28,090 bases of DNA, from positions 1 to 28,090 of IMG/VR virus record IMGVR_UViG_3300030406_002631. The stretch is one strand, 5' to 3'. This document shows, piece by piece, positions 1,810 through 24,480 of the stretch (positions are counted from its first letter, which is position 1; each line of letters starts with the position of its first letter). A program made the translations under genes and the position numbers. Source of the DNA: a virus. The notes beneath the pieces are model-generated. The model was not told the origin of the DNA. It saw only the letters and a list, made by a program, of their open reading frames with translations, and made no database searches.

Positions 1810-2316
1810 ATGTTGAAGCCCTCGGACATTGAGTTTCGGCAAATGTCAGAGGAAGAAGCCGTTAAGGTGTTTCAAGAGGACGGATACTTTGATTATCAAA
1901 AGAGGTCAATGAGATATGGTAAGAATCTGTCACCAACTAGCATTTGGGCCAAGTCTCCGGCAACGATGTTCGTTGCTTTTCTTGGGGAAACTCCCGTGGG
2001 TGTAATAGGGTATTCGAAATACAAGGGTGTGTTGTTGGGTGCAGGTGTTCATATTCGTAAAGAGTACCGACGTAGAGGATTAGGAGATATCCTCATCGAT
2101 AAAATTCTGAAGAGTAAAGGCAGTAAGACTCTCTACGTTAACTTCACGAATAGTGTGGCCGCAGATAAGTATCGTTCCAAGGGTTTCAAAGATATGAAAC
2201 TCGAAGAACTACCCGCAGAGATTCGTGAAGAGTTAGAGGGAACAGGTTACGTTGACCAACTACAGAAGTGGTTCATCTTCTCAGAAAATTGGTGGGGGGT
2301 TGTCAATGGAAATTGA
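1810..2316 (+). CDS. GNAT-family N-acetyltransferase
   Basis: This is a 168-residue Gcn5-related acyltransferase, expected to move an acetyl group from acetyl-CoA to an amine. The acetyl-CoA pyrophosphate-binding motif A is clear at about residues 75-95 (VHIRKEYRRRGLGDILIDKI, with the R-R-R-G-L-G turn after the beta4 strand). The following segment with Y-V-N-F-T-N and A-A-D-K-Y-R-S-K-G-F matches motif B, where a substituted residue and a G-F end the fold. Length is normal for a single-domain GNAT. The substrate cannot be read from sequence; it could be a virion protein, a host protein or a small molecule. The start is set by GGTGAT at 1801. Its end overlaps the terminase start by 11 bases, so it is translated with packaging genes. 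Confidence 0.9.
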   Translation: MLKPSDIEFRQMSEEEAVKVFQEDGYFDYQKRSMRYGKNLSPTSIWAKSPATMFVAFLGETPVGVIGYSKYKGVLLGAGVHIRKEYRRRGLGDILIDKILKSKGSKTLYVNFTNSVAADKYRSKGFKDMKLEELPAEIREELEGTGYVDQLQKWFIFSENWWGVVNGN

Positions 2317-3736
2317 GAATCTCAATTTTGAGGACCAGATGGACCTTGAGATGTCGAGGACATCTTTTCCGTATTTCTTCAAGCACGTTCTTGGGATGAT
2401 GTTTCCTAAGTATATGGAAGAGTGGCTAGAGTTACTGGAATCGACAGACAGAACGGTCATCGTTTGTAGTCGTGACCACGGCAAGTCCGTATTCATGCAC
2501 TCTTGGGTCGTTTGGAATCTAGTGTTCCAGCCTCCTCCATATCAGATGCTCTACATCTCATCGAACCAAAAGCAGACGATGGTCCACATGAGGGATATTG
2601 ACAAGATATTCAATCATAGAATTCTCAAGCAGTTCAAGCCTGCAAGGGGATGGGCTATTGGTAACATCACATTGACCAATGGTAATTCTATTCTTGAGCG
2701 GTCAGTTGGTTCTCAGATTCGTGGTCTTCACCCTCAGGAGATTATCGTTGACGACCCAATGAAAGAGTTCAGCATGACGGCCATCAACAAAGTGAGTGAT
2801 TGGTTCTTCGGGGACTTGATTCCTACACTTCACCACACAGCATCTCTGAGAATGATTGGTACGCCTTTCTCATACACTGACATCTTCTCTCAGTTAGAAG
2901 AGAATGAAGTCTACACTGTCAGGAAGTACCCCTGCTTCAATTCTCTTAACGAACCTCTTTGGCCCGAGCGTTGGGATTACGAATCATTGATTCAACGTAG
3001 AGGAGAAATCGGCTCCCTCAAATTTACGAGAGAATACCTTTGTGTTCCAATTTCCACAGGGACTTCTTTGTTCTCACCAGATTACATTGAAGAGTCAAAG
3101 AATCCGAATGACATTTTGCGTATGGGTCAAAAAACGAGCCAACGGTACTATGTGGGAGTTGACCCTGCTATCTCAACAGATGGTGACTACAACGTTATCG
3201 TCGTGATTGAGAAAGATGAGAACGACAACAAGAAGGTCGTCTACGTTGACCGACAGAAGAACGTGAACTTTCGAGAGAACATCGAGAAGGTGCGTTTGGT
3301 CGGGAAGATTTTCAATCCCGAGGTCGTACTTTTCGAGACCAACACTTTCGCTAAGTCATTCACTCAAGAGTTGAGGAACATCTCTGACCTGAACGTTCGG
3401 GACTTCAACACAACACGTCGTAAGAAGCAGGAAGTTATCCTGAGCCTACAGATGAACTTCGAGAATCATAAAATCAAGTTACCCTACGGCGACGAGAACA
3501 GTCGAAGGGTTACCCAAGCCATCATCGAGGAATTATCGATGTTCTCTATTACTGAAAGTGGAAAATTTGAGGGTATTGGGGCGCATGACGACTTAGTGAT
3601 GGGTCTAGCATTAGCAAATGCGGCGTCGTCAATGGCATCGGATAACTTTATCCTACTAGAAGATATGAATATCTTTGATGCACCTAAGCCTCAGGCTTTC
3701 CCCGGCATGACAGGAGTTTTAGGTCTAAATTTCTGA
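2306..3736 (+). CDS. terL: Terminase large subunit (packaging ATPase-nuclease)
   Basis: This motor protein docks on the portal, drives DNA into the procapsid with ATP and cuts concatemers. It has 476 residues from the chosen ATG. The N-terminal ATPase shows Walker A CSRDHGKS at 54-61, Walker B with the acidic pair IIVDD at 146-150, and the coupling motif GTPF at 185-188. The C-terminal RNase H-like nuclease shows the metal ligands D286 (VGVDPAIS), E344 (LFETN) and the D428-D429 pair (GAHDDLVMG). All hallmark residues are present, so it should be active. A TTG at 2252 would add 18 residues inside the acetyltransferase gene, but the ATG at 2306 is preceded by a strong GGTGGGGGG site at 2291-2299. 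The overlap with the acetyltransferase suggests coupling. A recognisable small terminase was not found nearby. Confidence 0.98.
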   Translation: MEIENLNFEDQMDLEMSRTSFPYFFKHVLGMMFPKYMEEWLELLESTDRTVIVCSRDHGKSVFMHSWVVWNLVFQPPPYQMLYISSNQKQTMVHMRDIDKIFNHRILKQFKPARGWAIGNITLTNGNSILERSVGSQIRGLHPQEIIVDDPMKEFSMTAINKVSDWFFGDLIPTLHHTASLRMIGTPFSYTDIFSQLEENEVYTVRKYPCFNSLNEPLWPERWDYESLIQRRGEIGSLKFTREYLCVPISTGTSLFSPDYIEESKNPNDILRMGQKTSQRYYVGVDPAISTDGDYNVIVVIEKDENDNKKVVYVDRQKNVNFRENIEKVRLVGKIFNPEVVLFETNTFAKSFTQELRNISDLNVRDFNTTRRKKQEVILSLQMNFENHKIKLPYGDENSRRVTQAIIEELSMFSITESGKFEGIGAHDDLVMGLALANAASSMASDNFILLEDMNIFDAPKPQAFPGMTGVLGLNF

Positions 3737-3746: not shown

Positions 3747-5255
3747 ATGATTATTAGCAAGGAAATTGATTTCAGTGCGGAAGAAGAACGCATTGATAGG
3801 CAAAGGTCAGCCCTTGACCGTGCCAGAGACCTAAAGACCCAAATGGACGCAGAATTAGACAGTGCAGGAGTCAAGCAAGAAGATGAGGTTAGGGCGTCTT
3901 TGGATACAATGCCAATTATGTCTCATCATGAGACAGTGGTGAAGATTTCTCAAAAGTTCAACATTAATGCAACCGATGCAAGGAAACGATTAGAGAATTA
4001 CCCCATGGAGTTCAAGATGCAGGACATGACGGTTCCAGAAATCGTCAAGGCTCTACGAAGAAAGCGTCGAGAACTGAAAGGCGATGACAGAATCAAGATG
4101 TCAAAGGCCATCGAGACAGTTATCTCAGGATATGCTGACCATCTCTCCAAGAGCATCGACTCAATTTACTGGATTCGTAAATACAAGTACCCTCTGACCA
4201 AGATGAGGTTCACTGAAACCGATTTGGCTAAACTCAACACGGTTACTAGTGAAAATGACCGAAGAGAAATCATCGATTCGCTCTGCAAGTATTGGGAGGC
4301 AGAGTTAGATGCCAATATTCTACCGTACAACGCTGAGTTCTGCAAGTTAGACAAAGAGATGCGTCAAGCAAAGAGGGAGTTCCGAAGTTGCATTTCCAAG
4401 ATTGCAGATATTCGAACCACGCCAAAAGAGCAGGTTGAGGAGTTCATTCTGAAAACCGTGTGTGAGGAGCAGGGACTTACAGCGAGACAAGTTCACGACA
4501 GGATGCCAAAACAATTCCATCGAAAGACCTCTCCTCAAATGATTTCCAAGATGGTCAAGAAGTTAGAAGTCACATCCATCAACGGACGATACTACAAGTT
4601 GCCCGGAGAAATCAAGAAGAATATCTACGCATACACTGCGGCATTCATCGATTCTGATGGGTACATTACTGTGGATAGGAACATGAATCCCCGAGTTGGA
4701 TTGGTGGCAACAGGTGAGCGAGGTAAAGCGTTCATGCTCGATATCCACAAGGAGTTGGGAATTGGTAAACTCCACCTTGACCAGAAATCTCCTCAAGGTA
4801 CTCGACCCGTTAATCGTCTAAACTTCTATTCGCAAAATGAAGTCTACGAGTTACTCAGCAAGTGCCTACCACATTTCAGAATGAAGAAGCCCAACGCAGA
4901 ACTTCTCATCGAATTGATTCGCATGAAGAAATCCCACAAGAAACAATCTTGGTACAGAGAGCGGTGTCAAGAGATTTTCAAGTTGATGAAGTACGAGAAC
5001 CACAAGGACCACGTAGGATTCGATTTCGTAAAGGAAGGAATCGACATCGAGACTGTGGCTAAGTTACATGATAACTGCAAGATGGGACTCATGGATGACT
5101 TGGAATCGGTACTCAAGAGTGACTTAGATGATGCCATCAACGATTTGGAAAACATCGAAGAGAAGTACCAACTAACCGATAAGGAATGGGACAGTCTAGA
5201 TGATGCGTCAGATTATCTATTTGAACACAAAGGACCAGAGGGTGAAGAAGAATGA
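3747..5255 (+). CDS. Large protein with helix-turn-helix-like regions and one LAGLIDADG endonuclease-like domain
   Basis: The 502-residue protein has three parts. Residues 1-55 are charged and helical. Residues 55-290 are helical and contain two possible DNA-binding segments: about 50-80 (VVKISQKFNINATDARKRL) and about 240-290, which resembles a winged helix. Residues about 290-405 form a LAGLIDADG-type homing endonuclease domain: the motif AAFIDSDGYI at 298-307 gives the helix-acidic residue pattern, and LLSKCLPHFRMKKPNAELL is the helix usually seen before the end of this fold. Only one motif is present, so it would act as a homodimer if active. The tail is acidic and coiled. It directly follows the terminase with its own GGTGAT. 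No flanking intron or intein was recognised. It may be a free-standing homing endonuclease or a domesticated DNA-binding protein with a packaging role. Confidence 0.8.
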   Translation: MIISKEIDFSAEEERIDRQRSALDRARDLKTQMDAELDSAGVKQEDEVRASLDTMPIMSHHETVVKISQKFNINATDARKRLENYPMEFKMQDMTVPEIVKALRRKRRELKGDDRIKMSKAIETVISGYADHLSKSIDSIYWIRKYKYPLTKMRFTETDLAKLNTVTSENDRREIIDSLCKYWEAELDANILPYNAEFCKLDKEMRQAKREFRSCISKIADIRTTPKEQVEEFILKTVCEEQGLTARQVHDRMPKQFHRKTSPQMISKMVKKLEVTSINGRYYKLPGEIKKNIYAYTAAFIDSDGYITVDRNMNPRVGLVATGERGKAFMLDIHKELGIGKLHLDQKSPQGTRPVNRLNFYSQNEVYELLSKCLPHFRMKKPNAELLIELIRMKKSHKKQSWYRERCQEIFKLMKYENHKDHVGFDFVKEGIDIETVAKLHDNCKMGLMDDLESVLKSDLDDAINDLENIEEKYQLTDKEWDSLDDASDYLFEHKGPEGEEE

Positions 5256-5671
5256 ATTGGATGGAGATTTTGAAAGAGATGAGTTGCCCAAGGGCTACGC
5301 AAGATGTAGAGTTAAATACCGAAAATCGGAATTTGACTCGAAAGAACCACATGTACGGACCGGCTAATCCTGATGAGCCGGGAGATTACTGGGACAAAAT
5401 TGCAGAGAAGTGGGAGACTTCGGTAGAAGCGGCTAAGTCCATGCGATGTGGGAACTGCGTAGCATTCGATATCTCCAAGCGAATGATGGAGTGTATGCCC
5501 GGAGAGATTTCTGAAAAGGAAGGGGAAGAAACTCTAGGATACTGCCACATGCATCACTTCAAGTGCCATTCGGCTCGAACCTGTGATACTTGGGCAAAGG
5601 GTGGACCAATCACTGAGAATGATATCTCCAAGGATTGGCAGAAGAAGGCGGAGGCCAAGAAAGATGACTGA
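5252..5671 (+). CDS. Trp-tagged Cys-rich small protein
   Basis: This 139-residue protein starts with MNWMEILKE, the first example here of the shared N-terminal Trp peptide. Six cysteines lie mostly in the C-terminal half: C66-x2-C69, C81, C98, C105 and C111, with the block GYCHMHHFKCHSARTCDTWA. Such a CxxC...C...C pattern with flanking His suggests a zinc or iron-sulphur binding mini-domain; similar Cys blocks ending in CDxWxxGG occur in marine phage proteins, from memory. The ATG overlaps the previous stop as ATGA and the site GGGTGA precedes it. Its function is unknown; a virion or internal-protein role is inferred from the tag and position. Confidence 0.88.
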   Translation: MNWMEILKEMSCPRATQDVELNTENRNLTRKNHMYGPANPDEPGDYWDKIAEKWETSVEAAKSMRCGNCVAFDISKRMMECMPGEISEKEGEETLGYCHMHHFKCHSARTCDTWAKGGPITENDISKDWQKKAEAKKDD

Positions 5672-5879
5672 AGATTGGTTCGATGTTGTCAAGCGCAAGA
5701 AGAAGCGCAAGTCTACAGTGAACCAAGCAGGTAATTACACGAAGCCAGCCCTACGACGACGACTCTTCAATAAAATCAAGAGAGAAGGGAAAGGTGGACG
5801 GCCGGGACAATGGTCGGCTCGTAAAGCGCAAATGTTGGCTATGGCATACAAGAGAGCAGGAGGAGGATATCGTGACTGA
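5664..5879 (+). CDS. Trp-tagged small basic protein with WSARKAQ motif
   Basis: This 71-residue, strongly basic protein begins MTEDWFDVVKRKKKRK. An in-frame ATG at 5583 lies deep in the previous gene and is rejected, because the tag aligns with the next protein only from 5664. The C-terminal 45 residues carry GGRPGQWSARKAQMLA and end in GGGYRD. I know this motif from small proteins of many marine phages and some large viruses, which I associate with DUF5872; that assignment is from memory. The gene overlaps its left neighbour by eight bases. Its size and charge fit a DNA-associated internal protein, which is inference. Confidence 0.85.
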   Translation: MTEDWFDVVKRKKKRKSTVNQAGNYTKPALRRRLFNKIKREGKGGRPGQWSARKAQMLAMAYKRAGGGYRD

Positions 5880-6159
5880 GGAATGGTTCGATACTCTGAA
5901 AGCGAAAACTAAGCGACAACGTGCCCTTAGTGAATGGACCCGAGAAGATTGGCAGTACGTTTCTGGTGATAAGAGGGAAATGAAGAAGCCACGTTCAAAG
6001 CGAGGAAGGTACGCTCCAAAGTCTGTTGCTGAATCTCTCACTGCTAAGGAAAGAGCATACGAGAATCGCAAGAAGCGAGAAGGCTCTAAGAAAGGAAAGC
6101 AATTTGTCCCTCGTGGTAAATCTGCTAAAAAGAAGTATAAACGTGTTGAAGGACTATGA
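5872..6159 (+). CDS. Trp-tagged small basic protein, N-terminal paralogue of its left neighbour
   Basis: This is a 95-residue basic protein from a GTG at 5872, with an excellent GGAGG site at 5862-5866. Its first residues (VTEEWFDTLKAKTKRQ) closely match those of the preceding protein (MTEDWFDVVKRKKKRK), while the rest differs. The C-terminal half reads LTAKERAYENRKKREGSKKG and then Q-F-V-P-R-G-K, a pattern I recall in small marine-phage head-region proteins. A start at 5794 would remove the tag from the N-terminus and lacks a good site. No fold is known to me. It shares the tag-plus-basic-body design of its neighbours. Confidence 0.82.
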   Translation: MTEEWFDTLKAKTKRQRALSEWTREDWQYVSGDKREMKKPRSKRGRYAPKSVAESLTAKERAYENRKKREGSKKGKQFVPRGKSAKKKYKRVEGL

Positions 6160-6587
6160 GTTGGTTTCAAGTTCTTAAAAAGGACATGAGTTACTGTATA
6201 TGCAGTGGACCAAATAAAACTAAAGGATTTACTTGTAAGCAACATTGTAAGTATGGTCGAGTAAAAAAAGAAGAACCGAGAAAAGGTACAGGAAAGAAAC
6301 CCAAAGGTTCCTCACGAAGATTATACACCGATGAAAATCCAGATGACACAGTTCCAGTAAAATTCCGCACAGCCCAAGATGTTAGAGATACCTTCGCTAG
6401 TTCTGCGTTCAAGTCAAAGTCACATCAACGGAAATCACAAATCATCAATCTGGTAGAGCAGAGAGCAAGAGTAGCGGCAAGGAGAGCGAAGGACCCGGAA
6501 GCGAGAAAGCGATTGAAGGCCGCACATCAAGTAGCATTAGCCCGAAAGGAATCTAGTAAAAGGAAAACACAGAGGATGAGGAACTGA
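6156..6587 (+). CDS. Trp-tagged basic protein with N-terminal Cys cluster
   Basis: This 143-residue protein begins MSWFQVLKKD, the shared tag, followed by a four-Cys knot (C14, C16, C27, C31) that could bind a metal. A basic linker leads to a conserved-looking body, residues about 65-140, with VPVKFRTAQDVRDTFASSAF, S-K-S-H-Q-R-K-S-Q-I-I-N-L and a Lys/Arg-rich helical tail. I recall this body from small phage proteins that travel with the WSARKAQ and QHKD families, with no known function. Its ATG overlaps the previous stop (ATGA). The charge suggests nucleic-acid contact; this is inference. Confidence 0.85.
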   Translation: MSWFQVLKKDMSYCICSGPNKTKGFTCKQHCKYGRVKKEEPRKGTGKKPKGSSRRLYTDENPDDTVPVKFRTAQDVRDTFASSAFKSKSHQRKSQIINLVEQRARVAARRAKDPEARKRLKAAHQVALARKESSKRKTQRMRN

Positions 6588-6588
6588 A

Positions 6589-7434
6589 ATGTCTGACCTT
6601 AGCATCTACGAAGTTTCTCCCAGAGATGGGCTACAGAATTCTTCTTTCGAGATGTCAGTTGATGAGAAGGTCTACCTCGTAGAGTCACTATTCCATGCAG
6701 GTCTAGATGAGATGGAAGTCGCCTCGTTTGTTAATCCAAAATATGTCCCACAGATGGCTGGTTCGAAAGAGGTGTTTTCCCAGACTAAGCACCTTGGAGA
6801 CTTTGGCACTCTGATTCCCAATCAGCGAGGATTCGATGATGCCAAGTCACTAGGCGTTTCGAAGTTCAATGTCTTCTTCTCTACATGCGAGGAGTTCAAC
6901 AGAAGGAACCTGAATCGTTCATTCGATGAGAAGTACCTAGAACTGGAATCGATGCTAGAAGAAGTGGACCAATCTGATGTGAGGGTCTACGTATCGTGTG
7001 CTTTCGGTAGTCCTTTCAGCGGATTACCAGATGAGCACAAACTCAGAGATGTCGTTGAAAAAGCATCTCACCTTTCGGATGAAGTTGTCTTATGCGATAC
7101 TGTTGGAACATGTCACCCAACATTGATGCTTAGAACATTGGAGTTAGTGAAGGACGTAGACGCTACGTTAGCCTTACATCTTCATGAAAATAAGAACGGT
7201 TCTAAGATTATGAGTAATGTCGAGGCGGCGGTTCGTTGGGGAGTTACTAAATTCGACGCTAGTGTGGCAGGGTTAGGGGGATGCCCGTTCATCCCCGGTA
7301 GCGGAAAAAATCTGTCAACTAATGAATTCATTAAATGGGCAAACAATAATAATTATGAAACAGGAATCGAAATAGATAGTTTAGAAGAGATTACTCAGTT
7401 ACTTAACAGAAAGAAAATGGAGGTCATAGTATGA
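6589..7434 (+). CDS. HMG-CoA-lyase-like enzyme (DRE-TIM metallolyase family)
   Basis: The 281-residue TIM-barrel enzyme would cleave 3-hydroxy-3-methylglutaryl-CoA to acetyl-CoA and acetoacetate. The family signature EVSPRDGLQN is at 8-17. Comparison with human HMGCL finds every key residue: R12 and D13 (human R41, D42), E43 (E72), H197 and H199 in LHLHEN (H233, H235), C232 in the loop GLGGCPFIPG (C266) and N241 (N275), with near-identical spacing. It therefore looks catalytically complete and closer to HMG-CoA lyase than to isopropylmalate or homocitrate synthases. The specific substrate is still inference. Length is slightly shorter than bacterial forms, with a reduced C-terminus. It lies between two Trp-tagged small proteins; its ATG follows GAGGATGAGG, and its stop overlaps the next start (ATGA). 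The last 40 codons are more AT-rich than the rest. Confidence 0.92.
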   Translation: MSDLSIYEVSPRDGLQNSSFEMSVDEKVYLVESLFHAGLDEMEVASFVNPKYVPQMAGSKEVFSQTKHLGDFGTLIPNQRGFDDAKSLGVSKFNVFFSTCEEFNRRNLNRSFDEKYLELESMLEEVDQSDVRVYVSCAFGSPFSGLPDEHKLRDVVEKASHLSDEVVLCDTVGTCHPTLMLRTLELVKDVDATLALHLHENKNGSKIMSNVEAAVRWGVTKFDASVAGLGGCPFIPGSGKNLSTNEFIKWANNNNYETGIEIDSLEEITQLLNRKKMEVIV

Positions 7435-7751
7435 CTTGGAAAGAGACACTGAAGAAGAAAGAACTTGTTGGAAACCAAAAGGAACTCGACCGTAACAAGA
7501 ACGGTAAGTTGGATGCTGAAGATTTCAAGATGCTCCGTGAAGGAGTGGAGATTGAGAAGGCAGACATGTCCATGCTAAGAACACTCATCATGGAGAAACT
7601 GAAGAAAGAGGGTGGGGCGGCAGGTCTTCGTGACTTGGAGAAAGTCGTTCGTCCTCATGTCAAATCTTCATTCAACGTTAAGGAATTCATCAAGCGACAC
7701 ATGAAGCGCACAGTAGAAGAACATCGACATGGAGATTACATCTTAGTGTGA
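7431..7751 (+). CDS. Trp-tagged protein with an EF-hand-like loop
   Basis: This 106-residue protein begins MTWKETLKKK, the shared tag. Residues 20-31 form a canonical calcium-binding loop: D20, N22, N24, G25, L27, D28 and D31 occupy positions 1, 3, 5, 6, 8, 9 and 12, and the loop continues into DFKMLR, as in EF-hand or dockerin repeats. Only one loop is present. Residues about 60-106 are helical and basic, possibly a winged helix ending in HGDYILV. It overlaps the lyase stop by four bases, so the two are co-translated. A role in calcium-stabilised capsid assembly or packaged cargo is possible but not shown. Confidence 0.87.
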   Translation: MTWKETLKKKELVGNQKELDRNKNGKLDAEDFKMLREGVEIEKADMSMLRTLIMEKLKKEGGAAGLRDLEKVVRPHVKSSFNVKEFIKRHMKRTVEEHRHGDYILV

Positions 7752-7755
7752 TACC

Positions 7756-8121
7756 ATGCAATGGTTTGACATTGTAAAGTCCGGCCCTTGCTGTGACGAT
7801 TGTTCTGAAGTTTTGAAAACTGATGACTTAATCAATAAAGCAGATATTAAAAGAATTAAGGGCGGAGTCATTTATCGTGGAGAAAAGTTTCCCGGTCTAA
7901 ATAAACCAAAACGAGCACCAAAAGGTAGTTCTAAGAAATATAGGGTTCTAGCCCACCAAGATGGTAAATATAAGATTGTCATGTTCGGTTTCCGTGGTAT
8001 GCAAGACTTTTTACAACACAAAGACCCAAAACGTCGGGCTAATTTTAAATCACGACATAACTGCGATGAGAAGAAAAATAAACTAACTGCTGGTTGGTGG
8101 GCCTGTAACTACAATTGGTGA
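7756..8121 (+). CDS. Trp-tagged protein with the QHKD...RHNCD body common in marine viruses
   Basis: This 121-residue protein begins MQWFDIVKSG (shared tag), followed by a Cys group C12, C13, C16. The C-terminal 60 residues carry KYRVLAHQDGKYKIVMFGFRG, interrupted here as V-M-F-G-F then MQDFLQHKDPKRRANFKSRH, and NCDEKK...TAGWWACNYNW. This body is widespread in phages and large DNA viruses and I associate it with DUF5754, from memory. Function is unknown, although it is often near head genes. It is more AT-rich than the genes on either side. It is the last of the first run of tagged genes and lies just before the portal. Confidence 0.86.
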   Translation: MQWFDIVKSGPCCDDCSEVLKTDDLINKADIKRIKGGVIYRGEKFPGLNKPKRAPKGSSKKYRVLAHQDGKYKIVMFGFRGMQDFLQHKDPKRRANFKSRHNCDEKKNKLTAGWWACNYNW

Positions 8122-8170
8122 AGCAACATTGATAAGGTGATGGACCCAACGGAACTTAGGGGATGATGTT

Positions 8171-9811
8171 ATGGTAGAGGAACCACGCAGAAGATTCTCC
8201 TTTGGTAACTTATTTCGTCGTAGAACCCCTGTTCCCGAAGATAGGTCCATTTACAACATAGGTATCCAAGAGCGGGCTAATTCCTATATGATGACCGCTC
8301 CATTTATTTATCGTATAGTAGAGCAATCAGTTATTGTTAGAACTTGTATCTCTAATATCAAGCAAGAGGTCTTTCGAAGAGGATACTATTGGGAAGAAGC
8401 ATTTACTATGCAATGCAAGACTTGCGGTAAGAAACACTCTAACCCGGTTACCGAATGTATGCGGTGTGGTAGCACGGAACTCAGAAAACCCGACCCTAAG
8501 CAATTGGAGTACGCTGAGAAATTTCTCGACGGGTACGTCAATGGTTCTGAGCAACTCTTCGTTGATGTTCTGAAGGAATTAGAAGACGACCTCAACATCA
8601 TGGATGATGCTTACATCGTTCTCGTCAAGGAGTATTACCTTGACAACTCGGGAACCATTCGTATGCATCGAATCAAGGAACTCTTCCGTGGAGACCCTGT
8701 AACCATGATGATTTACTCTGATGAAGAGGGTAAGATGGGTACTCGGGGTTTCACCTGCCTTGACCATCGAAGTTTCCTGAGTGACAATGCTCATGACCAC
8801 TGCCAAGAATGTGGTAAGTCATTATTCCCGGTTCACTATGTGAATCGAGCAAAGGGCAGTGACCAGTATTTCATCAAAGGAGAGGTGCTTCACTTCAGCA
8901 AGTATCAGCCATCTCGACTCTACGGTTTCTCACCAATTTTGACATTGTTCAATCATATTACGACACTCATCGCTATGGAGAATTATGTCAACAGTTACTA
9001 CTCTAAGAGCCGTACACCCCGAGGTTTATTGGCAGTTCAGACACGTAACATGGACTCAATGCGTCAATTCTGGCGAGGTGTGAAGGAGAAGATGGAGCAG
9101 GACCCACACTTCATCCCTATCATGGGTATTGAGGCTGAGAATGGAAAGGGGTCTGTTGAATGGATTAAATTCATGGATAACCTGAAGGAAATGGATTACG
9201 TTTCCGTCAAGGATGACTTGCGTGACAGAATCTCTGCTTTCTATGGTGTCAGTAAGGTGTTCATGTCTGACAACTCTGCCGGAGGAGGTCTCAACAATGA
9301 GGGAATGCAGATTCTTGTCACGAATCGAGCAGTTCAGATGGCTCAGAATATCTACAACGATTACGTCTTCCCATTCATGCAGATGCAGTTTGGCATCACC
9401 GATTGGAAACTTAGGTTACCCCCCTCAGAAGAGGAGGATGAAATCGCTACACTGCGAAAGCGGGAGATTGAGATTAACCTCGCCGCTTCAATGAAGAACT
9501 TAGGATTTGAAGTCGATATGGATGAAGATGGTAGGTTCACTTTCACTAAGGAGAAACCCAAAGAGGAAATGCCTATGGCTGAAGATGGCCCAGTTGAAAA
9601 GGATAATCTCATAGAATCTGATATTGTTGAGCCAGAATTAGATGAAATGCAACCAGAGACATTAGAGGATAGAACACCTAAACCTCAGGAGAATCCTCCC
9701 GCCACAAGAAATAAACCTCGCATGAGCGTAGGGCCGGACAAGAGGTTGACCGGATTACCTGAAGAAGCCGGAAATCAAAACGTCGATAGAAGAAGCGAAA
9801 GGAGAATTTGA
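8171..9811 (+). CDS. Portal protein with two zinc-ribbon insertions
   Basis: The 546-residue portal forms the dodecameric ring at the capsid vertex through which the terminase pumps DNA. Portal-type segments are the N-terminal region up to about 70, the wing and stem region around 235-345 (EVLHFSKYQPSRLYGFSPIL, R-T-P-R-G-L-L), and the crown-side segment AFYGVSKVFMSD followed by G-G-G-L-N-N-E-G (356-378). Two metal sites interrupt the fold: C82-x2-C85 with C96-x2-C99, and C196-x2-H199 with C211-x2-C214. Both look like intact zinc ribbons and are not standard in portals. Residues 460-546 are acidic, Pro-rich and probably disordered. The ATG follows GGGGATGATGTT. It begins the head-assembly block and is followed closely by several small genes. 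Confidence 0.93.
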   Translation: MVEEPRRRFSFGNLFRRRTPVPEDRSIYNIGIQERANSYMMTAPFIYRIVEQSVIVRTCISNIKQEVFRRGYYWEEAFTMQCKTCGKKHSNPVTECMRCGSTELRKPDPKQLEYAEKFLDGYVNGSEQLFVDVLKELEDDLNIMDDAYIVLVKEYYLDNSGTIRMHRIKELFRGDPVTMMIYSDEEGKMGTRGFTCLDHRSFLSDNAHDHCQECGKSLFPVHYVNRAKGSDQYFIKGEVLHFSKYQPSRLYGFSPILTLFNHITTLIAMENYVNSYYSKSRTPRGLLAVQTRNMDSMRQFWRGVKEKMEQDPHFIPIMGIEAENGKGSVEWIKFMDNLKEMDYVSVKDDLRDRISAFYGVSKVFMSDNSAGGGLNNEGMQILVTNRAVQMAQNIYNDYVFPFMQMQFGITDWKLRLPPSEEEDEIATLRKREIEINLAASMKNLGFEVDMDEDGRFTFTKEKPKEEMPMAEDGPVEKDNLIESDIVEPELDEMQPETLEDRTPKPQENPPATRNKPRMSVGPDKRLTGLPEEAGNQNVDRRSERRI

Positions 9812-9812
9812 A

Positions 9813-10031
9813 ATGACAGATACAGCACAAAGAGTAAGGCAGTTACAAAAGGAACTAGCCCAAGCAAAATCAGATTTAGCCGCTAGTGACCGAGTAGGTA
9901 CTCGAAGTAACCGACTTGATGTTGCAGGCACTGACCCTAGCCTACAAAAGAGAAACATTCCCGGTTCCTCTGAAATTCCTGATGTAATCCTATTACCTAA
10001 GAAACAGCGACGTACTGAAAACAAGTGGTAA
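9813..10031 (+). CDS. Small hypothetical protein after portal
   Basis: This 72-residue protein starts one base after the portal stop, with GGAG in the site GAAAGGAGAATTTGAA. The N-terminal 28 residues (MTDTAQRVRQLQKELAQAKS and onward) are a short coiled coil; the rest is Pro/Ser-rich, ends basic, and looks unstructured. I do not recognise the family. Placement between portal and scaffold-like genes suggests a head-assembly accessory. Confidence 0.75.
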   Translation: MTDTAQRVRQLQKELAQAKSDLAASDRVGTRSNRLDVAGTDPSLQKRNIPGSSEIPDVILLPKKQRRTENKW

Positions 10032-10033
10032 AC

Positions 10034-11269
10034 ATGTTCTTCTCCGAACTTAAGAATGACCAATCCCTTATGGGATTAGTTGATACTATTCTTAAGAGGG
10101 TGAACCTTTCAGAAGAAGACAGAGAGATTATTTCAGACCTTAATAGGCAAAACTATATTCATGATATTAGGGGAACTAAACTCCCTATGTATCTCAAGAA
10201 GCGTCTAATTTCTAAGTTAGAGGAAGAAGAGATTGAAATAAAGTTAACCAAGGATATCAATAGAAAATTGAAAGCAATCAAGTCTTTAGCAGATAACTTA
10301 GATAAGATTGCTTTCTCGTTATCTAAGTTAGATAAGATGATGAGTAATCCGGATATTACTTATTCAGATATTGAGGATGAACTTAAGAACTTGGGAGGAG
10401 GTACTCCATCAGTATTTTCTGACTTAATTAGTAACAATAAGTTACCTCAAGTTTTAGATAAAGGTATGACCGCAAATCTTCTATCAAGATTTGATGAAAA
10501 GAGTTTTGATGAACTGTTTAGAAACTTTGGAAGCGAAGAACTACATCAAAGATATATTGATTCAGGCATTGAAGAAAATAAGATTGAGACTCTTAAGTCC
10601 CGGTTAGATAGGTCAAAAAATAATCTAGAGAAGATTAAAGTTCATCTTGAAAGCATTCAAGATACATATAATGATAGTAAAAAGTTGAGAGAGACAATGG
10701 GTGAGTCTTTACTACCAGAGGGAGTAAGTGAAAGCCAATATCAGTTAGAATTGATGCAAGCCTTTGCTGATGTATTTGGTGTAAAGTTAAATCTAAGAAA
10801 ACAAATTATGGTTAGCCAAGAAGAACTTCAATCAGAAATGGAACTTCTTAGGCAAATGATTGAGGATGAAAATTTAGAATCGCTACATGAAGATGCTAAA
10901 AAGAGACTCAAATATTTAGAAATAATCACTCCTAAAATATATATGGTAGACGATATTCATCAAATGGTAAGTGCTTCTCCGGAGTTCGAGAAAGAGTTAT
11001 CTAAGAAGTTAACTAGGGCAGAAAGAGAAATCATTAAGACTTTAGCAGGATTTGATGTCCGTATCCATAGAAACGATATGAGTAAATTTAGGGAACTACT
11101 CAAGAGAAGAGGAGACCTATTAATGGATAAAGAAATTCAGTCACTGTTAAATGACACAGAAGAAACACTAGAGACAACTGCTTCCGAAGCAGAAGAAATT
11201 TCTCAAGTGCTATCTAATTCATATACTATTCTAGACGCACTTATGCAACAAAAGGAGGAAAGAAACTGA
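10034..11269 (+). CDS. Long coiled-coil protein in the head block
   Basis: This 411-residue, Lys/Glu/Leu-rich protein is mostly helical. Long coiled coils are likely at about 60-110, 170-230, 240-295 and 330-410. No enzymatic motif is visible. A GTG at 10025 lies in the same frame, but it overlaps the previous gene, and the ATG at 10034 follows directly after that stop. Its first residues, MFFSELKND, resemble a degenerate Trp tag (compare MSWFQVLKKD) with Phe in place of Trp. The gene is markedly AT-rich, with TTA and AGA codons dominating, unlike the portal before it. A structural, scaffold-like or internal-core role is inferred from position and helicity. Confidence 0.8.
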   Translation: MFFSELKNDQSLMGLVDTILKRVNLSEEDREIISDLNRQNYIHDIRGTKLPMYLKKRLISKLEEEEIEIKLTKDINRKLKAIKSLADNLDKIAFSLSKLDKMMSNPDITYSDIEDELKNLGGGTPSVFSDLISNNKLPQVLDKGMTANLLSRFDEKSFDELFRNFGSEELHQRYIDSGIEENKIETLKSRLDRSKNNLEKIKVHLESIQDTYNDSKKLRETMGESLLPEGVSESQYQLELMQAFADVFGVKLNLRKQIMVSQEELQSEMELLRQMIEDENLESLHEDAKKRLKYLEIITPKIYMVDDIHQMVSASPEFEKELSKKLTRAEREIIKTLAGFDVRIHRNDMSKFRELLKRRGDLLMDKEIQSLLNDTEETLETTASEAEEISQVLSNSYTILDALMQQKEERN

Positions 11270-11628
11270 TGTGGGAAGACGTATTGAAGAGGAAATCTCC
11301 TCAAGAAATCGCAAAGGAATACAGCCCGATGCTAGAGAAACTCGATAAGAAAGTAAAGAAGAAGGTAAAGCGTACCTTACAAGCCGCTCAACCTACTGAA
11401 TATTTTGGTCAAGACTTTACCAAGTTGTCAGAGTTACTGGACGTATTGAAGGAACTAGACTTAATTAAGTCAGATGATGACATGAAGAAGGAAGTTTTAA
11501 CAATTGATGAGGAAAACTTAGACTTAGTTGCACAAGCCGCTACCCTCCGAAAGAAGTATGAAAGTCTTTATAGGCGAGTGCGAGGCATGGTCTATCCAAA
11601 GCGTAAGGGGGACTTACGAGATGAGTGA
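11269..11628 (+). CDS. Trp-tagged helical protein
   Basis: The 119-residue protein begins MWEDVLKRKS, the shared tag with no residue between Met and Trp. The rest is helical and charged, with basic runs at about 25-36 (DKKVKKKVKRT) and 100-115 and no Cys cluster. Its ATG overlaps the stop of the coiled-coil gene (TGATG), and AAAGGAGGAAAG provides the site. It is the last N-terminally tagged gene and is separated from the others by the portal. No family was recognised. Confidence 0.85.
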   Translation: MWEDVLKRKSPQEIAKEYSPMLEKLDKKVKKKVKRTLQAAQPTEYFGQDFTKLSELLDVLKELDLIKSDDDMKKEVLTIDEENLDLVAQAATLRKKYESLYRRVRGMVYPKRKGDLRDE

Positions 11629-11866
11629 CGAAACAAATGAGATGCTACTACTAATGAAAGAATTAGTTACAAGAATCAAAACACTAGAAGAAACAGTTTA
11701 TCATAAAGATAATCTCTTAATGAAAGCAGGATGGGTAGTAAGTGAGTCCCCTTCTCCCAGCATCTCTAATTCTGGCATTTCTAGTGACCTTCCAGATAGT
11801 GATACTATCTCGAAAATGGATTGGTCGCAAATTCACGAAATGGTAGAAAGAATGGAGGGAGCATGA
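11621..11866 (+). CDS. Small helical protein ending in MDWSQIH peptide
   Basis: The 81-residue protein starts at the ATG at 11621, which overlaps the previous gene by eight bases; earlier in-frame starts lie inside that gene. The first 35 residues form a coiled coil (MLLLMKELVTRIKTLEETVY), followed by a Ser/Pro linker. The C-terminus reads D-T-I-S-K-MDWSQIHEMVERMEGA. This end closely matches the C-terminus of the protease/scaffold fusion (MDWSDIHRVARGN). Shared C-terminal helices suggest that both bind the same partner. Coiled coil, linker and docking helix is a scaffold-like design. No family was recognised. Confidence 0.8.
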   Translation: MSDETNEMLLLMKELVTRIKTLEETVYHKDNLLMKAGWVVSESPSPSISNSGISSDLPDSDTISKMDWSQIHEMVERMEGA

Positions 11867-12255
11867 TGCCTGAGAAAGTTACCAAAGAAGAACGCCTTGC
11901 AGAACAAATCATGGATGTTGTATCTAAGGCAAGAGAGATGCTCCAAGAACCAACTAATGAGCAACTTCCCCTCCCAAGTAATGAGGAAGAAGTTGAGCGT
12001 AAAGACCCTAAGCCTATGGCGGACGAGACTGAAAATCTTAACCAAAAAGAAGAGGGCTTTGGTCTAGGTGGGGAGGAAGTCGGTTCTCCGGTAAAGAAGG
12101 AAGAGGAGCAGACCCCAAGGGAAATTATGATTGCTATCTCTAAACTCAGGGATGCAGAAAGAAAGCGAATCATGGAAAAACTGTACGAACTGGGTAATAA
12201 AATGGGCTTATATCCCCAGTTGGCTCGATTGAAGGCAAAACAGCAGAATAAGTGA
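11863..12255 (+). CDS. Acidic, partly disordered hypothetical protein
   Basis: The protein has about 130 residues from the ATG at 11863 (ATGA overlap) or one fewer from 11866; ATGGAGGGA lies just upstream. Residues 1-30 are helical, the middle 40-95 is rich in Glu, Pro and Lys and probably disordered, and the last 35 residues (REIMIAISKLRDAERKRIME and onward) are a helix. Nothing catalytic is visible. It belongs to the run of small assembly-type genes between portal and ligase. The role is unknown. Confidence 0.72.
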   Translation: MMPEKVTKEERLAEQIMDVVSKAREMLQEPTNEQLPLPSNEEEVERKDPKPMADETENLNQKEEGFGLGGEEVGSPVKKEEEQTPREIMIAISKLRDAERKRIMEKLYELGNKMGLYPQLARLKAKQQNK

Positions 12256-12259
12256 TTAG

Positions 12260-14773
12260 ATGCCCTCATCTGCACTTCTCTTAGAGAAGGATACTAATTT
12301 GCTTAGTAAGCAGATTCTTGATTTGTTTGAATCAGTTCGTGCGGCCTATTTGATGGCTCGCACAGATTCTAAATCTTATGGAAATAAATGGCAAGGTGCC
12401 GTAAAACAAATTCGTGAAAAATTAGAAACAAAAGGTTCTATGGGAACTCTTCTTTCTGAGTATGTAAATGAAAAAGATTTAACTTCCCAAGATGTGATGA
12501 ACCCAGAATCTACAGTTGCTCGTAATTTATATGAAAGTATTAAAGAATTAAGATTAAAAGATGATGCGGTAAAAGACCCATTTGCTAAAGAGTTCGGCGA
12601 CGAAACCCTTGACCGTCTTCTAGAAGACCAAGGTAATATGGTGAAATTTATTCACTATGCTATTCGTAGTGACAATAGAACACTAATGCCAGAATGTTAT
12701 GCCCATATCGAGGTCGAGGAAGACAAAATTACACGGGGTCTTCAGGGGTTAGACCTACATCCTGACGATGTATCCCTCTATATTTCCGAACACTACGGGG
12801 ACGAAAAAGATACCTCTACAGTAGAAACCAAGGTTAAGGCCGCTTTTGACTCTTTGAAAGAGGCGTTCCTCCACATGAACAGTGAGGAGGATTGGTCTAA
12901 CTTAATGCGTGTAGATGTGAAGAAGTCTACAGAAGAGAAAGCGATTAGTGACTTTGTAGTTCCGAACAAACCCATGTATCGAATTTTCGACATTGAGGAC
13001 ATGAATGAACTCAAAGGGTTCTCTGGGGAATACGTCGTTCAAGAAAAGTACGATGGTATGCGCATTCAAATTCATAAGATTGATGACCGGGTGAAAATCT
13101 ATTCCTACAATGAAAAGGATATCACTGAGAAGTGTCCTGAACAAGTCAAAGTGATGCAAGCAAAGCACTTTGGAGATTGCATTCTAGATGGAGAACTCAT
13201 TCTTTTCGATGGGGACAGTGCCCTTCATCGAGCCGATACTATCGCTCACGTATTCAAAGATAAATACAAAGATGCCAGATTAAGGGCGCACGTTTTCGAT
13301 ATCATTCGGCACGAAGACCGAAGTATTCACGATGAAACTCTACAGGATAGGCTCAACACATTGTTCAACAATTACTCTATCCACTCTGATGAGTATCTTC
13401 AGTTCCCTTCCAAGAAGGATACCCGAATGGCAGATAGCCTCAAGGATATTGAGAAGTATGCTGAGGAAATCATGGACATGCCTACAGCAGAAGGTGTTGT
13501 CATCAAAGATGCTACATCCACATATTTCATTGGCACAAAGAAGAACCCCAAGTGGGTGAAGTGGAAGAAATTCAAGGACCTTGACCTTCTAGTGTTAGGG
13601 AAGAAGAAAACGAAGAGTAACCTTTACTCTTACACTCTTGGTGCTGGACCAGTAACCGAAGGAGAAGGGAAAATCTACTCTGAGTATGAGGGTAAGAAAT
13701 ACATGAATGTTGGAAAGGCCCTCAACACGAAAATCAACGTTGATGTTGGGGCCATTCTCCGAGTCAAAGTAGACGAGGTGAAGAGTAATGGAGAAGGATT
13801 CACCATCTATTCTGCTAAGGTTATTGAAATCCCAGAGGTTCAACATCCAGATAAAGTCATCACTCTTGAGTTACTTGCTGAAGATACCAAGCCCTCTCTG
13901 AAGTATAAGGTGAAAGCACTTCGTAAGGGATTCGGAATCACTGACTATATTCACGGTGAGGCTACTATCATCATGAAATCTGACCTAGATGGTTTCACAA
14001 TCTATGGGTTCGAGGAAGATAACCTCATGTCAAAGAATGCCATTGCTAACTTAGATTACTGGAAAACTCAGGCAGAGGAAGTCATGAAGACTAAGCAGGC
14101 CCTCATCACTACAGCAGTATTGAACTTCCTCAAGGATAAAGGTCCTCAAACCATCGATGCGACCCATAAGTTCCTACTCGAAAAAGTTGGTGAAGAGTAC
14201 GAAGATGTCTTAGAATCAGATAAGAAGAAACTAAAGAATTGGTTAGACTTTAGGGATGGGATTACATTTGATAGACAAACTAACAAATTAATTCACGATG
14301 TAGATAAATTAATCAAGTATGAAACTCCTGACAAGTATCGTAAAGGACAATTCAAAATCTACTATAGGAAGGATGAGAACTTAGAACTAGTTATGAAACT
14401 GGGTGACGAAGAGTTGTCTTGGACTATCGATATTGAAACTGAAGAAGATATTTACTCCTTATTCGGTAAGGCAGGCAAATACCCTGCTGAAGTAACTCGG
14501 GCATCTTCAAAGAAAAAGGTGCTTGATAGTGGTGATATTACATTAGGAGTCCAGAGAGAAGATTATCACGAATATTTCTTATCTGGTAATCGTTTTGAGA
14601 CTAAAATGCATTTCCGTGTCATTGAAGTAGATGGAAAGGAGATGTGGTTGGCTTGGACGGGATACAAGCAAACTCCCGCAGATAAGAGTAATGACGAAGG
14701 ACAGTGGAATTTTACTCAAGGGAAGTATAAGAAATTAGCACTCCCAACCGAAGAAACCGAGGCTATTAAGTAG
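12260..14773 (+). CDS. ATP-dependent DNA ligase with extra N- and C-terminal regions
   Basis: This 837-residue enzyme seals nicks through a lysyl-AMP intermediate. Core nucleotidyltransferase motifs are intact: motif I EKYDGMR with K263 as nucleophile, motif III ILDGEL at 308-313, IIIa AHVFDII at 343-349, motif IV EGVVIK at 411-416 and motif V KWVKWKKF at 431-438. An OB-fold follows to about 525. The N-terminal 235 residues are helical and resemble no ligase DNA-binding domain that I recognise. Residues 540-680 and about 690-830 are additional; the last includes EYFLSGNRF and MWLAWTGYKQTPAD, faintly reminiscent of the LigD phosphoesterase region, which is uncertain. Typical viral ligases are 300-600 residues, so this is large. 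It lies in the head block, directly before the protease. Codon use changes inside the gene: AT-rich at both ends and less so in the core. Confidence 0.96.
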   Translation: MPSSALLLEKDTNLLSKQILDLFESVRAAYLMARTDSKSYGNKWQGAVKQIREKLETKGSMGTLLSEYVNEKDLTSQDVMNPESTVARNLYESIKELRLKDDAVKDPFAKEFGDETLDRLLEDQGNMVKFIHYAIRSDNRTLMPECYAHIEVEEDKITRGLQGLDLHPDDVSLYISEHYGDEKDTSTVETKVKAAFDSLKEAFLHMNSEEDWSNLMRVDVKKSTEEKAISDFVVPNKPMYRIFDIEDMNELKGFSGEYVVQEKYDGMRIQIHKIDDRVKIYSYNEKDITEKCPEQVKVMQAKHFGDCILDGELILFDGDSALHRADTIAHVFKDKYKDARLRAHVFDIIRHEDRSIHDETLQDRLNTLFNNYSIHSDEYLQFPSKKDTRMADSLKDIEKYAEEIMDMPTAEGVVIKDATSTYFIGTKKNPKWVKWKKFKDLDLLVLGKKKTKSNLYSYTLGAGPVTEGEGKIYSEYEGKKYMNVGKALNTKINVDVGAILRVKVDEVKSNGEGFTIYSAKVIEIPEVQHPDKVITLELLAEDTKPSLKYKVKALRKGFGITDYIHGEATIIMKSDLDGFTIYGFEEDNLMSKNAIANLDYWKTQAEEVMKTKQALITTAVLNFLKDKGPQTIDATHKFLLEKVGEEYEDVLESDKKKLKNWLDFRDGITFDRQTNKLIHDVDKLIKYETPDKYRKGQFKIYYRKDENLELVMKLGDEELSWTIDIETEEDIYSLFGKAGKYPAEVTRASSKKKVLDSGDITLGVQREDYHEYFLSGNRFETKMHFRVIEVDGKEMWLAWTGYKQTPADKSNDEGQWNFTQGKYKKLALPTEETEAIK

Positions 14774-14801: not shown

Positions 14802-15953
14802 ATGGAAAGCATCCTTGCAGTACGCAAAGACGAATTCGAGATTCTCAAAAGTAGCGACGAACTAATGATTGGTGGGTACGCAAGCATCGAAATTGTAGAC
14901 AAGCAAAATGACTTAATCACTTTAGATGCATTAAAAGACGCAGTTCAAAAATTCATGGAGGAAAAACCCTTTAGGAATGTAATGACAAATCATTCAAATG
15001 TTCAAGTAGGAACTGTAGTAGATTCATATCGAGATAAAACAGGACGACTCTGGAAAACAGAAGTAGACGACGTAGGATTCTTTGTAGTAATTAAACTAAG
15101 AGAGGACATCGAAAAAGCAAAAGAAGTCCAAAGAGGAATTAGAAAAGGTACTCTACGTTCATTTAGCATTGGTGGACAAGCACTCAGAAAGAATAAGAAA
15201 ACACATCCCGAACTAGGGCAATACAACGAAATTTCAAAATTAGAACTACACGAAGTCACGATTTGTGAAAAAGGAATCAATCCAGAAGCAAAATTTGACA
15301 TTTTAAAACAAGACAAAGGTGAGAAAATGACTGAAGAACTGACGAAAGCATTGGAAGAACTCGATTCTCTTCTCAAAGAGATGAAGGGTGAGAAAGAAAT
15401 GATGGAACATGCCGCCCACGAAGAAGAAAAAATGGGCGAGTATGCCATGATGGAAGAAGAGAAGGCCGAAGAAATGATGGCTTACAGCGAAGAAGAAGAG
15501 AAGGCCGAGCCTGCCACAGAAGATGGTGAGCCTGAGGACCGAATCGTCGTCGATGCTGGAAAGCCCACTCATTCCGCTCCTGTTGTGAAAGGATTCACAA
15601 ACGAGGAATTGGGTACTCTTGACCTCTCAATTGACAACATTGAGAAGGCATACGAGGCATTCCGCCAAGAGCAATTAGAGGCTCTTGCTTATGATAACCT
15701 CAAGAAAGCGTTCGAGTCCCGATTCGAGCGAGAGAGTGCAGAGCGAGCAGAGATGCTTGCAAAGCAGAACTACGACGCCGCTTCCGAGGTTGAATCCTTG
15801 AAGAACGAGTTTGCGGAACTCCGCAAGTCTCTCACGGCTGAGAAAGATGAGATTCTAAAGGCACAATCCGAGCCTGCGTTCGAGGTCCCTTCATTGGACC
15901 AAATCGCAGATATGGATTGGAGTGACATCCACCGAGTTGCCCGAGGAAACTGA
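14802..15953 (+). CDS. Prohead protease (XkdF-like) fused to scaffold domain
   Basis: This 383-residue protein matures the procapsid. Residues about 1-170 match the XkdF/S78-like serine protease fold: GYASIEIVDKQNDLI at 25-39, H64 in MTNHSNVQVG, S122 in LRSFSIGGQA and LELHEVTICEKGINPEAKF at 147-165. H64 and S122 are the likely catalytic pair. Residues 177-245 are Glu/Met-rich and acidic, 265-365 form a coiled coil, and the C-terminus is MDWSDIHRVARGN. Acidic plus coiled-coil is the usual scaffold design. A GTG at 14793 is possible, but GGAGTGGGAG at 14790-14799 best fits the ATG at 14802. A second start at 15327 may yield the scaffold alone. The protease part is AT-rich and the scaffold part is not. 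The capsid gene follows immediately. Confidence 0.88.
   Translation: MESILAVRKDEFEILKSSDELMIGGYASIEIVDKQNDLITLDALKDAVQKFMEEKPFRNVMTNHSNVQVGTVVDSYRDKTGRLWKTEVDDVGFFVVIKLREDIEKAKEVQRGIRKGTLRSFSIGGQALRKNKKTHPELGQYNEISKLELHEVTICEKGINPEAKFDILKQDKGEKMTEELTKALEELDSLLKEMKGEKEMMEHAAHEEEKMGEYAMMEEEKAEEMMAYSEEEEKAEPATEDGEPEDRIVVDAGKPTHSAPVVKGFTNEELGTLDLSIDNIEKAYEAFRQEQLEALAYDNLKKAFESRFERESAERAEMLAKQNYDAASEVESLKNEFAELRKSLTAEKDEILKAQSEPAFEVPSLDQIADMDWSDIHRVARGN
15318..15329 (+). promoter_or_regulatory. Internal ribosome-binding site and ATG for a stand-alone scaffold
   Basis: GGTGAG at 15318-15323, three bases before an in-frame ATG at 15327 (M176 of the fusion), repeats the layout used at true gene starts in this window. 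Initiation here would give a 208-residue protein holding only the acidic and coiled-coil scaffold part. Phage lambda makes Nu3 from within gene C in this way. Confidence 0.55.
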
Positions 15954-15967
15954 AGGAAGTGAAGAAA

Positions 15968-17338
15968 ATGAGTAAAGGATACATTAACACGATGACTGAC
16001 CTTGAAGCGGCCACCTACGGCGTTAGCGGTGTAGGCGGAAATGCTCTCTTGAAGCAGGCTGGTGCGGTTGCGAACATCAACAGCGCATACCGCCACGATA
16101 CCGGTACTGATTTCGTTGGACAGGCCGCAGGTCTAACTGCGCTTTACAACGTACTTTACGGCCAAAAAGTTTGGTCGATGCTAAACCGGGAAGTTAACGC
16201 ACTCAGCGTTCTTTCCAAGCGACCTTGGTCCTCTAGCGGATGGCGAGTTCTCAAGAGCCGTCCCTCTGGTGGCTCTGGTTCAACCTTTGGAATCGGTACA
16301 ACGGATTTGTCGCTTACTGGCGGTACTTCCTTTGATGCTCTCCGTGCTGACAAAATTGGTGGTGTTCCTGAGAACGCCTCATTCAGCAACTCTGAGGATG
16401 GTCTCGTCCCAATGACCCCAGAGTACGAGCAACTCTACTACAGCCCGAAGATTGTTGCTCACCAATTCGACTTCAGTGAGTTATCCCTTGAGATGGCCGC
16501 TATTGACGACGGTGTTGGCGACATTCGGGCTATTGTCCGTGAAGACATGGGTAAGCACCACGCTGAGGTCCAGAACAAAATGCTCGTAATGCCTCTTGAG
16601 CACTACGACAATGCGACCTACACGGCAATTGAGCGAAACTACACCTCGCTCCACAAAGTTGTCACGTCCTCTGCCGAATTGAACGCAATGAACGATGGTT
16701 CGCTCCTTGCTACCGGTAGCGGTGCTTCCACACTACCTGACCAAATCGTGAAACTCTACGGTTCCACGGCTCGTCAACTAAGCAGTGGAAATGCGGTTGC
16801 TTCCTTCTTGGATGCTGAGGTCGATTTCGGTAACGGATACGCCGCCGGAGATATCCGACCACTTACCCTAACTCTGCTCAATGACATGATTCGACGGCTC
16901 CGCCTCAACGGTGGGTCGCCCAAGGTCATTCTGACTGGATACGACACAATTCAGACAATTGCGGACCTTCTACAGTCCCAAGAGCGATTCATGGACCGAC
17001 AGGAGATTATCCCCACCTTCAACGGTGTTCGGGGAATCAAGGGTCAGGAAGTTGGATTCCGAGTAGCCACCTACTTTGACATCCCAATCATCCCAGTGAA
17101 GGATATGCCCGTTACCAAGAACTCCGGCGCAACCGGTGGAGTTTCGGACCTACTCTTCTTGGATACCGACCATCTCTGGCTCGGTGTCATGAAGCCCACA
17201 CAATACTTCGAGGACGGAATTACGAACGGCAACCCATTCGGTGTCGGAACTCTCGGAAACCGTGCAATGTACCGAACCATCGGTGAGGTCGGATGTTCCT
17301 TCTGGAAGGGACAGGGTAAAATCACGAACGTAAAGTGA
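15968..17338 (+). CDS. Major capsid protein, HK97-fold type
   Basis: This 456-residue protein follows the protease/scaffold gene, the standard position. It has a short N-terminal arm, a Gly/Ser/Thr-rich loop (RPSGGSGSTFGIGTTDLSL, about 97-115) that could be the E-loop region, and an alpha/beta body with PKVILTGYDTIQTIADLLQS (about 320-340) and a C-terminal strand set (LLFLDTDHLWLGVM, Y-R-T-I-G-E-V-G-C). These fit the P and A domains of HK97-like capsids; the assignment rests on context and pattern, not on a signature motif. A GTG at 15959 is in frame, but the ATG at 15968 has GAAGGAAGTGAAG upstream. Codon use is strongly biased to C-ending codons such as TAC, AAC and GAC, as expected for the most abundant virion protein. 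Confidence 0.9.
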   Translation: MSKGYINTMTDLEAATYGVSGVGGNALLKQAGAVANINSAYRHDTGTDFVGQAAGLTALYNVLYGQKVWSMLNREVNALSVLSKRPWSSSGWRVLKSRPSGGSGSTFGIGTTDLSLTGGTSFDALRADKIGGVPENASFSNSEDGLVPMTPEYEQLYYSPKIVAHQFDFSELSLEMAAIDDGVGDIRAIVREDMGKHHAEVQNKMLVMPLEHYDNATYTAIERNYTSLHKVVTSSAELNAMNDGSLLATGSGASTLPDQIVKLYGSTARQLSSGNAVASFLDAEVDFGNGYAAGDIRPLTLTLLNDMIRRLRLNGGSPKVILTGYDTIQTIADLLQSQERFMDRQEIIPTFNGVRGIKGQEVGFRVATYFDIPIIPVKDMPVTKNSGATGGVSDLLFLDTDHLWLGVMKPTQYFEDGITNGNPFGVGTLGNRAMYRTIGEVGCSFWKGQGKITNVK

Positions 17339-23726: not shown

Positions 23727-23727
23727 C

Positions 23728-24455: not shown

Positions 24456-24469
24456 TCCGTTTGTAAAAG

Positions 24470-24475: not shown

Positions 24476-24480
24476 GCAAT

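Follow-up and report, generated by a model that had tools for sequence, protein, structure and literature searches.

Peptides that load proteins into shells

Encapsulin cargo-loading peptides are short terminal peptides that bind the inside of an HK97-fold shell; they are usually C-terminal, belong to cellular compartments and serve one or a few cargos per shell. Among tailed phages the closest described system is the capsid-targeting sequence (CTS) of phage T4, a short N-terminal peptide common to the unrelated proteins IPI–IPIII and Alt, whose carriers are packaged in the head and have bodies that vary between related phages. About ten residues suffice, and for the internal protein IPIII the first 10 residues are enough for head entry (PMC9026906). 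In phage P22, cargo fused to the C-terminal part of the scaffold is packaged in vivo, and the scaffold ends in a helix-turn-helix that is essential for assembly (PMC9962691). Such loading works in tailed phages, as the T4 internal proteins (PMC9026906) and the P22 scaffold fusions (PMC9962691) both demonstrate.

Here we describe a short tryptophan-containing peptide, the tag, in viruses of the type of Magrovirales, which are viruses of Poseidoniales archaea (PMC10768690). Like the T4 CTS it is a short N-terminal peptide common to unrelated proteins, and it probably works like the CTS, a likeness proposed for the way of working and not extended to homology. In contrast to the CTS, no common cleavage site was seen after it, and it has far more carriers per lineage, is found also internally and at C-termini, and resembles the C-terminus of the scaffold itself. 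The P22 cargo fusions were engineered, whereas the magrovirus itself appears to place a scaffold-like peptide on many proteins. The nearest isolates found by portal protein are the Druskaviridae (HVTV-1 and HCTV-5, 27–28 % identity), and the HVTV-1 genome, unlike those of magroviruses, has no tag and a protease C-terminus without the scaffold motif. A search of open-licence papers did not find the tag motif and returned unrelated peptides only.

The locus and its tagged genes

The window, by which we mean the whole 28-kb stretch of DNA analysed, is a fragment of a tailed virus of Magrovirales type. The N-terminal tag is absent from the terminase, portal, protease and major capsid proteins themselves and present on their neighbours:

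2306..3736, + strand: terminase large subunit, untagged (PF17289)
8171..9811, + strand: portal protein, untagged (PF04860, phrog_18178)
14802..15953, + strand: prohead protease-scaffold fusion (PF04586 Peptidase_S78 at residues 19–175; long C-terminal helices in the model)
15968..17338, + strand: major capsid protein (MCP), untagged (phrog_24667, PF17236)

Genes for an ATP-dependent ligase and an HMG-CoA-lyase-like (HMGL-like) protein are also in the window, and DNA polymerase B (PolB) is absent from the fragment. Its portal protein has relatives on marine viral contigs as long as 96 kb, and in four relatives PolB is encoded on the opposite strand, far from the portal gene and within the untagged part of the genome. 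HMGL-like and ATP-dependent ligase genes have been described in Magrovirales (PMC10768690), and because these two genes, the portal relatives and the placement of PolB in relatives match the published description, the window is read from its sequence as a Magrovirales-type tailed virus, with structural genes related to those of ~90-kb PolB contigs that have a separate, oppositely transcribed replication cluster. PolB matches are split over two separate ORFs in two relatives (G001, 28243–30519; G002, 23358–25256), and the published Magrovirales map likewise has PolB in two separate ORFs. Magroviruses are uncultured. At 28 kb the window record is too short for a count of its full tag set, and the counts below come from relatives. 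A scan with the portal alignment returned mostly relatives that were already known, and querying with the MCP of a divergent contig led to further clades.

A preliminary description had reported the tag at the N-termini of seven window proteins, starting at 5252, 5664, 5872, 6156, 7431, 7756 and 11269. All seven are present in frame at these positions, all contain W-x-x-[ILVT]-[LV]-K, and a probable eighth copy is added here:

5252..5275, + strand: tag MNWMEILK on a Cys-rich protein, 5252–5671 (translation; 26 aligned orthologues)
5664..5693, + strand: tag MTEDWFDVVK on a basic ‘QWSARKAQ’ protein, 5664–5879 (translation)
5872..5901, + strand: tag (V)TEEWFDTLK, with a GTG start, on a protein at 5872–6159 (translation)
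6156..6179, + strand: tag MSWFQVLK on a protein at 6156–6587 (translation)
7431..7454, + strand: tag MTWKETLK on a protein with an EF-hand-like stretch, 7431–7751 (translation)
7756..7779, + strand: tag MQWFDIVK on a DUF5754 protein, 7756–8121 (translation; Pfam PF19058 at residues 58–101)
11269..11289, + strand: tag MWEDVLK on a helical protein, 11269–11628 (translation)
2287..2310, + strand: probable degenerate C-terminal tag NWWGVVNG on a GNAT-like protein, 1810–2316 (comparison with relatives)

The 26 aligned orthologues of the 5252 protein all keep W3 and K8, while the positions between these two vary, residues 4 and 5 among them. The Cys pattern of the 5252–5671 protein, CxNCxAFD..C..GYCxMH.FKC, looks by eye like that of high-potential iron-sulfur proteins; no match to this effect was found in Pfam, NCBIfam or the PDB, and a search of solved structures with the family returned nothing. 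The EF-hand Pfam match of the 7431 protein is weak and under the cut-off. In some relatives (L001, L009 and L043 among them) the body of the 11269–11628 protein begins MTWDYY(E/N)xGxEF.. in place of the tag, a different N-terminus that also contains Trp.

The eighth copy is the probable, degenerate one that ends the GNAT-like protein in ..SENWWGVVNGN. Among the relatives of this protein, that of L030 ends KWMGVLKWN and that of L029 ends KNWFVLLRR, and those of L001 and L034 carry the tag between domains.

Frequency and consensus of the tag

The preliminary description had proposed a comparison with shuffled sequences, and in the relatives N-terminal enrichment is far above chance. Four near-complete relatives have 421 genes that encode 80 aa or longer products; in 49 of these the tag lies near the start, against 0.16 expected when each protein is shuffled, and an internal Met is followed by the pattern in 2 of 2,155 cases. 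A codon-level search of 14 relatives found the pattern 145 times and its reverse twice, and across 81 loci 316 of 475 W..hhK occurrences begin within 10 residues of a called gene start. The observation is real and much larger in scale than had been reported.

The consensus is [S/N/T]-W-[K/E/F/Q]-[D/N/S]-[I/V]-[L/I]-K. When 150 family representatives are aligned, W and K alone are invariant, and since both are required by the search pattern, what the alignment tells us is that the representatives have no further residue in common. The 8 residues downstream of the tag contain no conserved residue, and no common cleavage site was seen there. Tag codons vary synonymously, with Ile and Lys near genome usage and Leu mixed, and it is therefore the peptide, and not the DNA, that is conserved and under selection. 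An internal MCP match, WLGVMK/WLSVMK, was not counted as a tag, being a conserved, non-terminal stretch of the capsid protein.

Bodies that carry the tag

The relatives hold 752 distinct tagged proteins, with bodies that fall into ~345 families, 215 of them singletons, between which no similarity is detected except in the tag; these families are single-linkage BLAST clusters (E 1e-4), in which distant relatives may be split. A Pfam search for one function common to the bodies gave scattered matches with one member each and no such function, the names including tRNA nucleotidyltransferase, GNAT, 2H phosphodiesterase, PAP2 and pentapeptide repeats. In one 14-kb stretch (L110), 19 of 25 called genes are tagged. 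The tagged proteins had been described as mostly basic, which holds for six of the seven in the window and does not hold generally, the median pI of the 345 family representatives being 5.9.

Two functional assignments were tried and set aside. A tagged ADP-ribosyltransferase-like protein (L165), considered as an analogue of Alt, received no support from Pfam, and four tagged families resembling HExxH metalloproteases by motif had a weak DUF6782 match as their sole Pfam backing.

Three bodies from the window have untagged homologues in bacterial marine phages, those of 5664, 5872 and 6156 being found in HTVC033P (gp42, gp39 and gp40), HTVC103P and Lederberg. For the 5664 protein, phrog_17747 and the bacterial-phage homologues align solely downstream of the tag; for the 5872 protein, which has untagged homologues in pelagiphages, the alignment to phrog_14910 begins at residue 11. 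In HMO-2011 the 5664 body is preceded by a different N-terminal module. As these alignments are read, the tag is an addition to the bodies and is not ancestral to them.

Contrary to the earlier description, the tag is also not strictly N-terminal: most copies are, and others stand between domains or at C-termini. In relatives, proteins of the 6156 family have the same body, which in some of them begins with the tag and in others has a KGGYYWGS-type domain ahead of the tag. A pattern search gave nine matches at C-termini, a pair of which come from near-identical loci. An N-degron or start-site effect is strongly disfavoured by these positions. In L017, L026, L034 and L055, a KGGYYWGSKGPF..AAYASGY-type domain stands ahead of the tag and body of the 6156 family; we take this domain to be one that occurs in bacterial marine phages.

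Genome placement and taxonomic spread

In four near-complete genomes all tagged genes are on the portal strand. Of the 231 genes inside the head-gene block 58 carry the tag, and of the 329 outside it one does (p=1.6e-23), the block being taken as −25 to +12 kb of the portal gene, limits that were chosen after the map was seen. The tagged genes had been said to surround the portal gene; in relatives most of them lie upstream of the terminase gene instead. The earlier interpretation, that one short peptide on many bodies points to a docking or localisation signal over common ancestry, fares better, since the unrelated bodies, conservation at protein level and confinement to the virion-assembly gene block all fit such a signal more closely.

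The exact tag codon pattern gave 33 scattered matches in 84,980 cellular genomes, one per contig, and when their surroundings were read one stood at a called gene start (in a Sulfurimonas MAG); the tag is essentially absent from these genomes. With the same pattern in viral contigs, among the matches listed, most tagged-gene loci also encode further proteins of magrovirus type; about a dozen matches are without a tagged gene.

A tag-like motif at the end of the scaffold

Two untagged head proteins of the window end in a motif that partially resembles the tag, a new clue drawn from sequence comparison:

15912..15938, + strand: C-terminal tag-like motif MDWSDIHRV of the prohead protease-scaffold, 14802–15953 (conservation in relatives)
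11816..11842, + strand: C-terminal tag-like motif MDWSQIHEM of a coiled-coil-like head protein of 81 aa, 11621–11866 (orthologues)

Among 82 relatives, 78 have a protease-scaffold whose C-terminus reads MDWSDIHKMV or nearly so, and in the remaining four the DNA record stops before this point. In two further clades the protein ends in MSWDEINELV or MSWDEIHGLF, and the C-terminal motif is thus kept across three clades. Orthologues of the coiled-coil-like protein (~80 aa) end MDWSDIHKMVE... A joint motif, [ML][STDNE]W.[DENST][IV], occurs 11 times among the 1,334 Trp residues of untagged proteins, seven times at the C-termini of these two proteins, four times in variant tags and nowhere else, an exclusivity that is not an independent test because the motif was chosen after both sets were seen.

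Against the tag matrix the commonest scaffold motif, DWSDIHK, scores 6.0 bits, the best scaffold version, DWKDIHK, 11.1 bits, and DWSQIHE of the window's coiled-coil-like protein −6.9 bits; the tag consensus itself scores 24. Position +4 is L/I in the tag and H/N in the scaffold, and the Lys is not kept in every scaffold. With scores running from −6.9 to 11.1 against 24, the resemblance is consistent but partial. The predicted scaffold structure, of low overall confidence, has two long helices and then a helix-turn-helix, with W373 starting the last helix; the model would thus end in two short helices, as does P22 scaffold with its C-terminal helix-turn-helix. Both structure models, one for the protease-scaffold and one for the 5252 family, were poor (mean pLDDT 55).

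Proposed function and alternatives

Because a similar peptide ends the capsid scaffold, the tag is probably a loading label for the new virus particle, and the idea of capsid cargo, raised in the preliminary description, gains independent support from the tag-like ends of the protease-scaffold and the coiled-coil-like head protein. On balance we think it likely that the tag serves as a portable docking motif by which accessory proteins enter the magrovirus procapsid during its assembly, and that it does so by mimicking the capsid-docking end of the scaffold, packaging and the partner being what we infer. The peptide [S/T/N]-W-[K/E/F/Q]-[D/N]-I-[L/I]-K would probably form a short amphipathic helix, with Ser/Thr/Asn as N-cap, a face formed by W, I and L, and Lys to close it, and may copy the end M-[S/D]-W-x-[D/E]-I-[H/N] of the protease-scaffold and 81-aa protein. 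The genes of the tagged proteins share strand and block with the head genes. Their products would dock next to the scaffold, on the inside of the capsid protein or on the scaffold core, become enclosed, remain in the virion and probably be delivered into the next host.

More tentatively, and a little short of an even expectation, this could be a general cargo-loading code, in which a scaffold-mimicking peptide, placed at the N- or C-terminus or between domains, brings proteins into the capsid, ten to twenty or more per genome, as a set that is open-ended and changes fast, and each virion delivers a protein payload to its archaeal host. If the loading role is right, one peptide would tell from sequence which hypothetical proteins ride in the virion, in an archaeal virus group that is among the most abundant in the ocean. 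Hundreds of families without a known function would then have a role to test, a small natural tag for capsid loading would be at hand, and there would be a way to study how archaeal tailed viruses act on Poseidoniales cells as infection begins.

The varied enzymes and binding domains among the bodies (tRNA nucleotidyltransferase, GNAT, 2H phosphodiesterase) would also suit docking, late in infection, to a host or intracellular viral hub such as an assembly focus, a membrane or RNA polymerase, in place of packaging; this seems unlikely given a replication half of the genome without tags and the similar motif at the scaffold end. It is likewise improbable that the tag docks proteins to another part of the virion (portal, neck or tail) or to a coiled-coil core, and not to the capsid shell, in which case they would still travel with the virion. 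Tagged genes do occur around the terminase and portal genes, and in G009 near head-tail connector genes, and the coiled-coil-like protein has the same C-terminal motif, but the motif that ends the protease-scaffold is consistent with a contact with shell or core, and most tagged genes are upstream of the terminase gene, away from the tail genes.

That the tagged genes are diverged duplicates with a common ancestral 5′ segment, and the tag functionless, is a far more doubtful proposition: some adjoining tagged genes are true paralogues, such as four in a row in G006, but against this stand the ~345 families without detectable similarity outside the tag, its retention at domain junctions and C-termini, and an invariant W and K among varying neighbours. 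A translation or DNA-level element (start-site context or recombination site), suggested by a tag that mostly follows the start codon and is often near a preceding stop codon, is largely refuted by the free synonymous codon variation and by internal and C-terminal copies, and can be practically discounted. The paralogues in G006 (11931–14600) form a tandem of four tagged genes (MTWFSIVKNRLLVKPKTQLRVQD..) upstream of the terminase gene.

Other recurring stretches

A longer form of the tag has a second stretch like AEE(F/Y)APEEM ~15 residues in; it was found in 8 distinct proteins by pattern, examples being:

L210, 73–462: longer tag form with the AEE(F/Y)APEEM-like stretch
L208, 1602–2018: the same
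L107, 694–1272: the same
L025, 8560–9039: the same

In the head region of HVTV-1 (L253, 19230–28018), gp113, gp115 and gp116 share a VY(I/V)xxxxEAPE-type stretch, seen by pattern in gp115 only and by eye in gp113 and gp116, which is possibly another recurring head-gene module.
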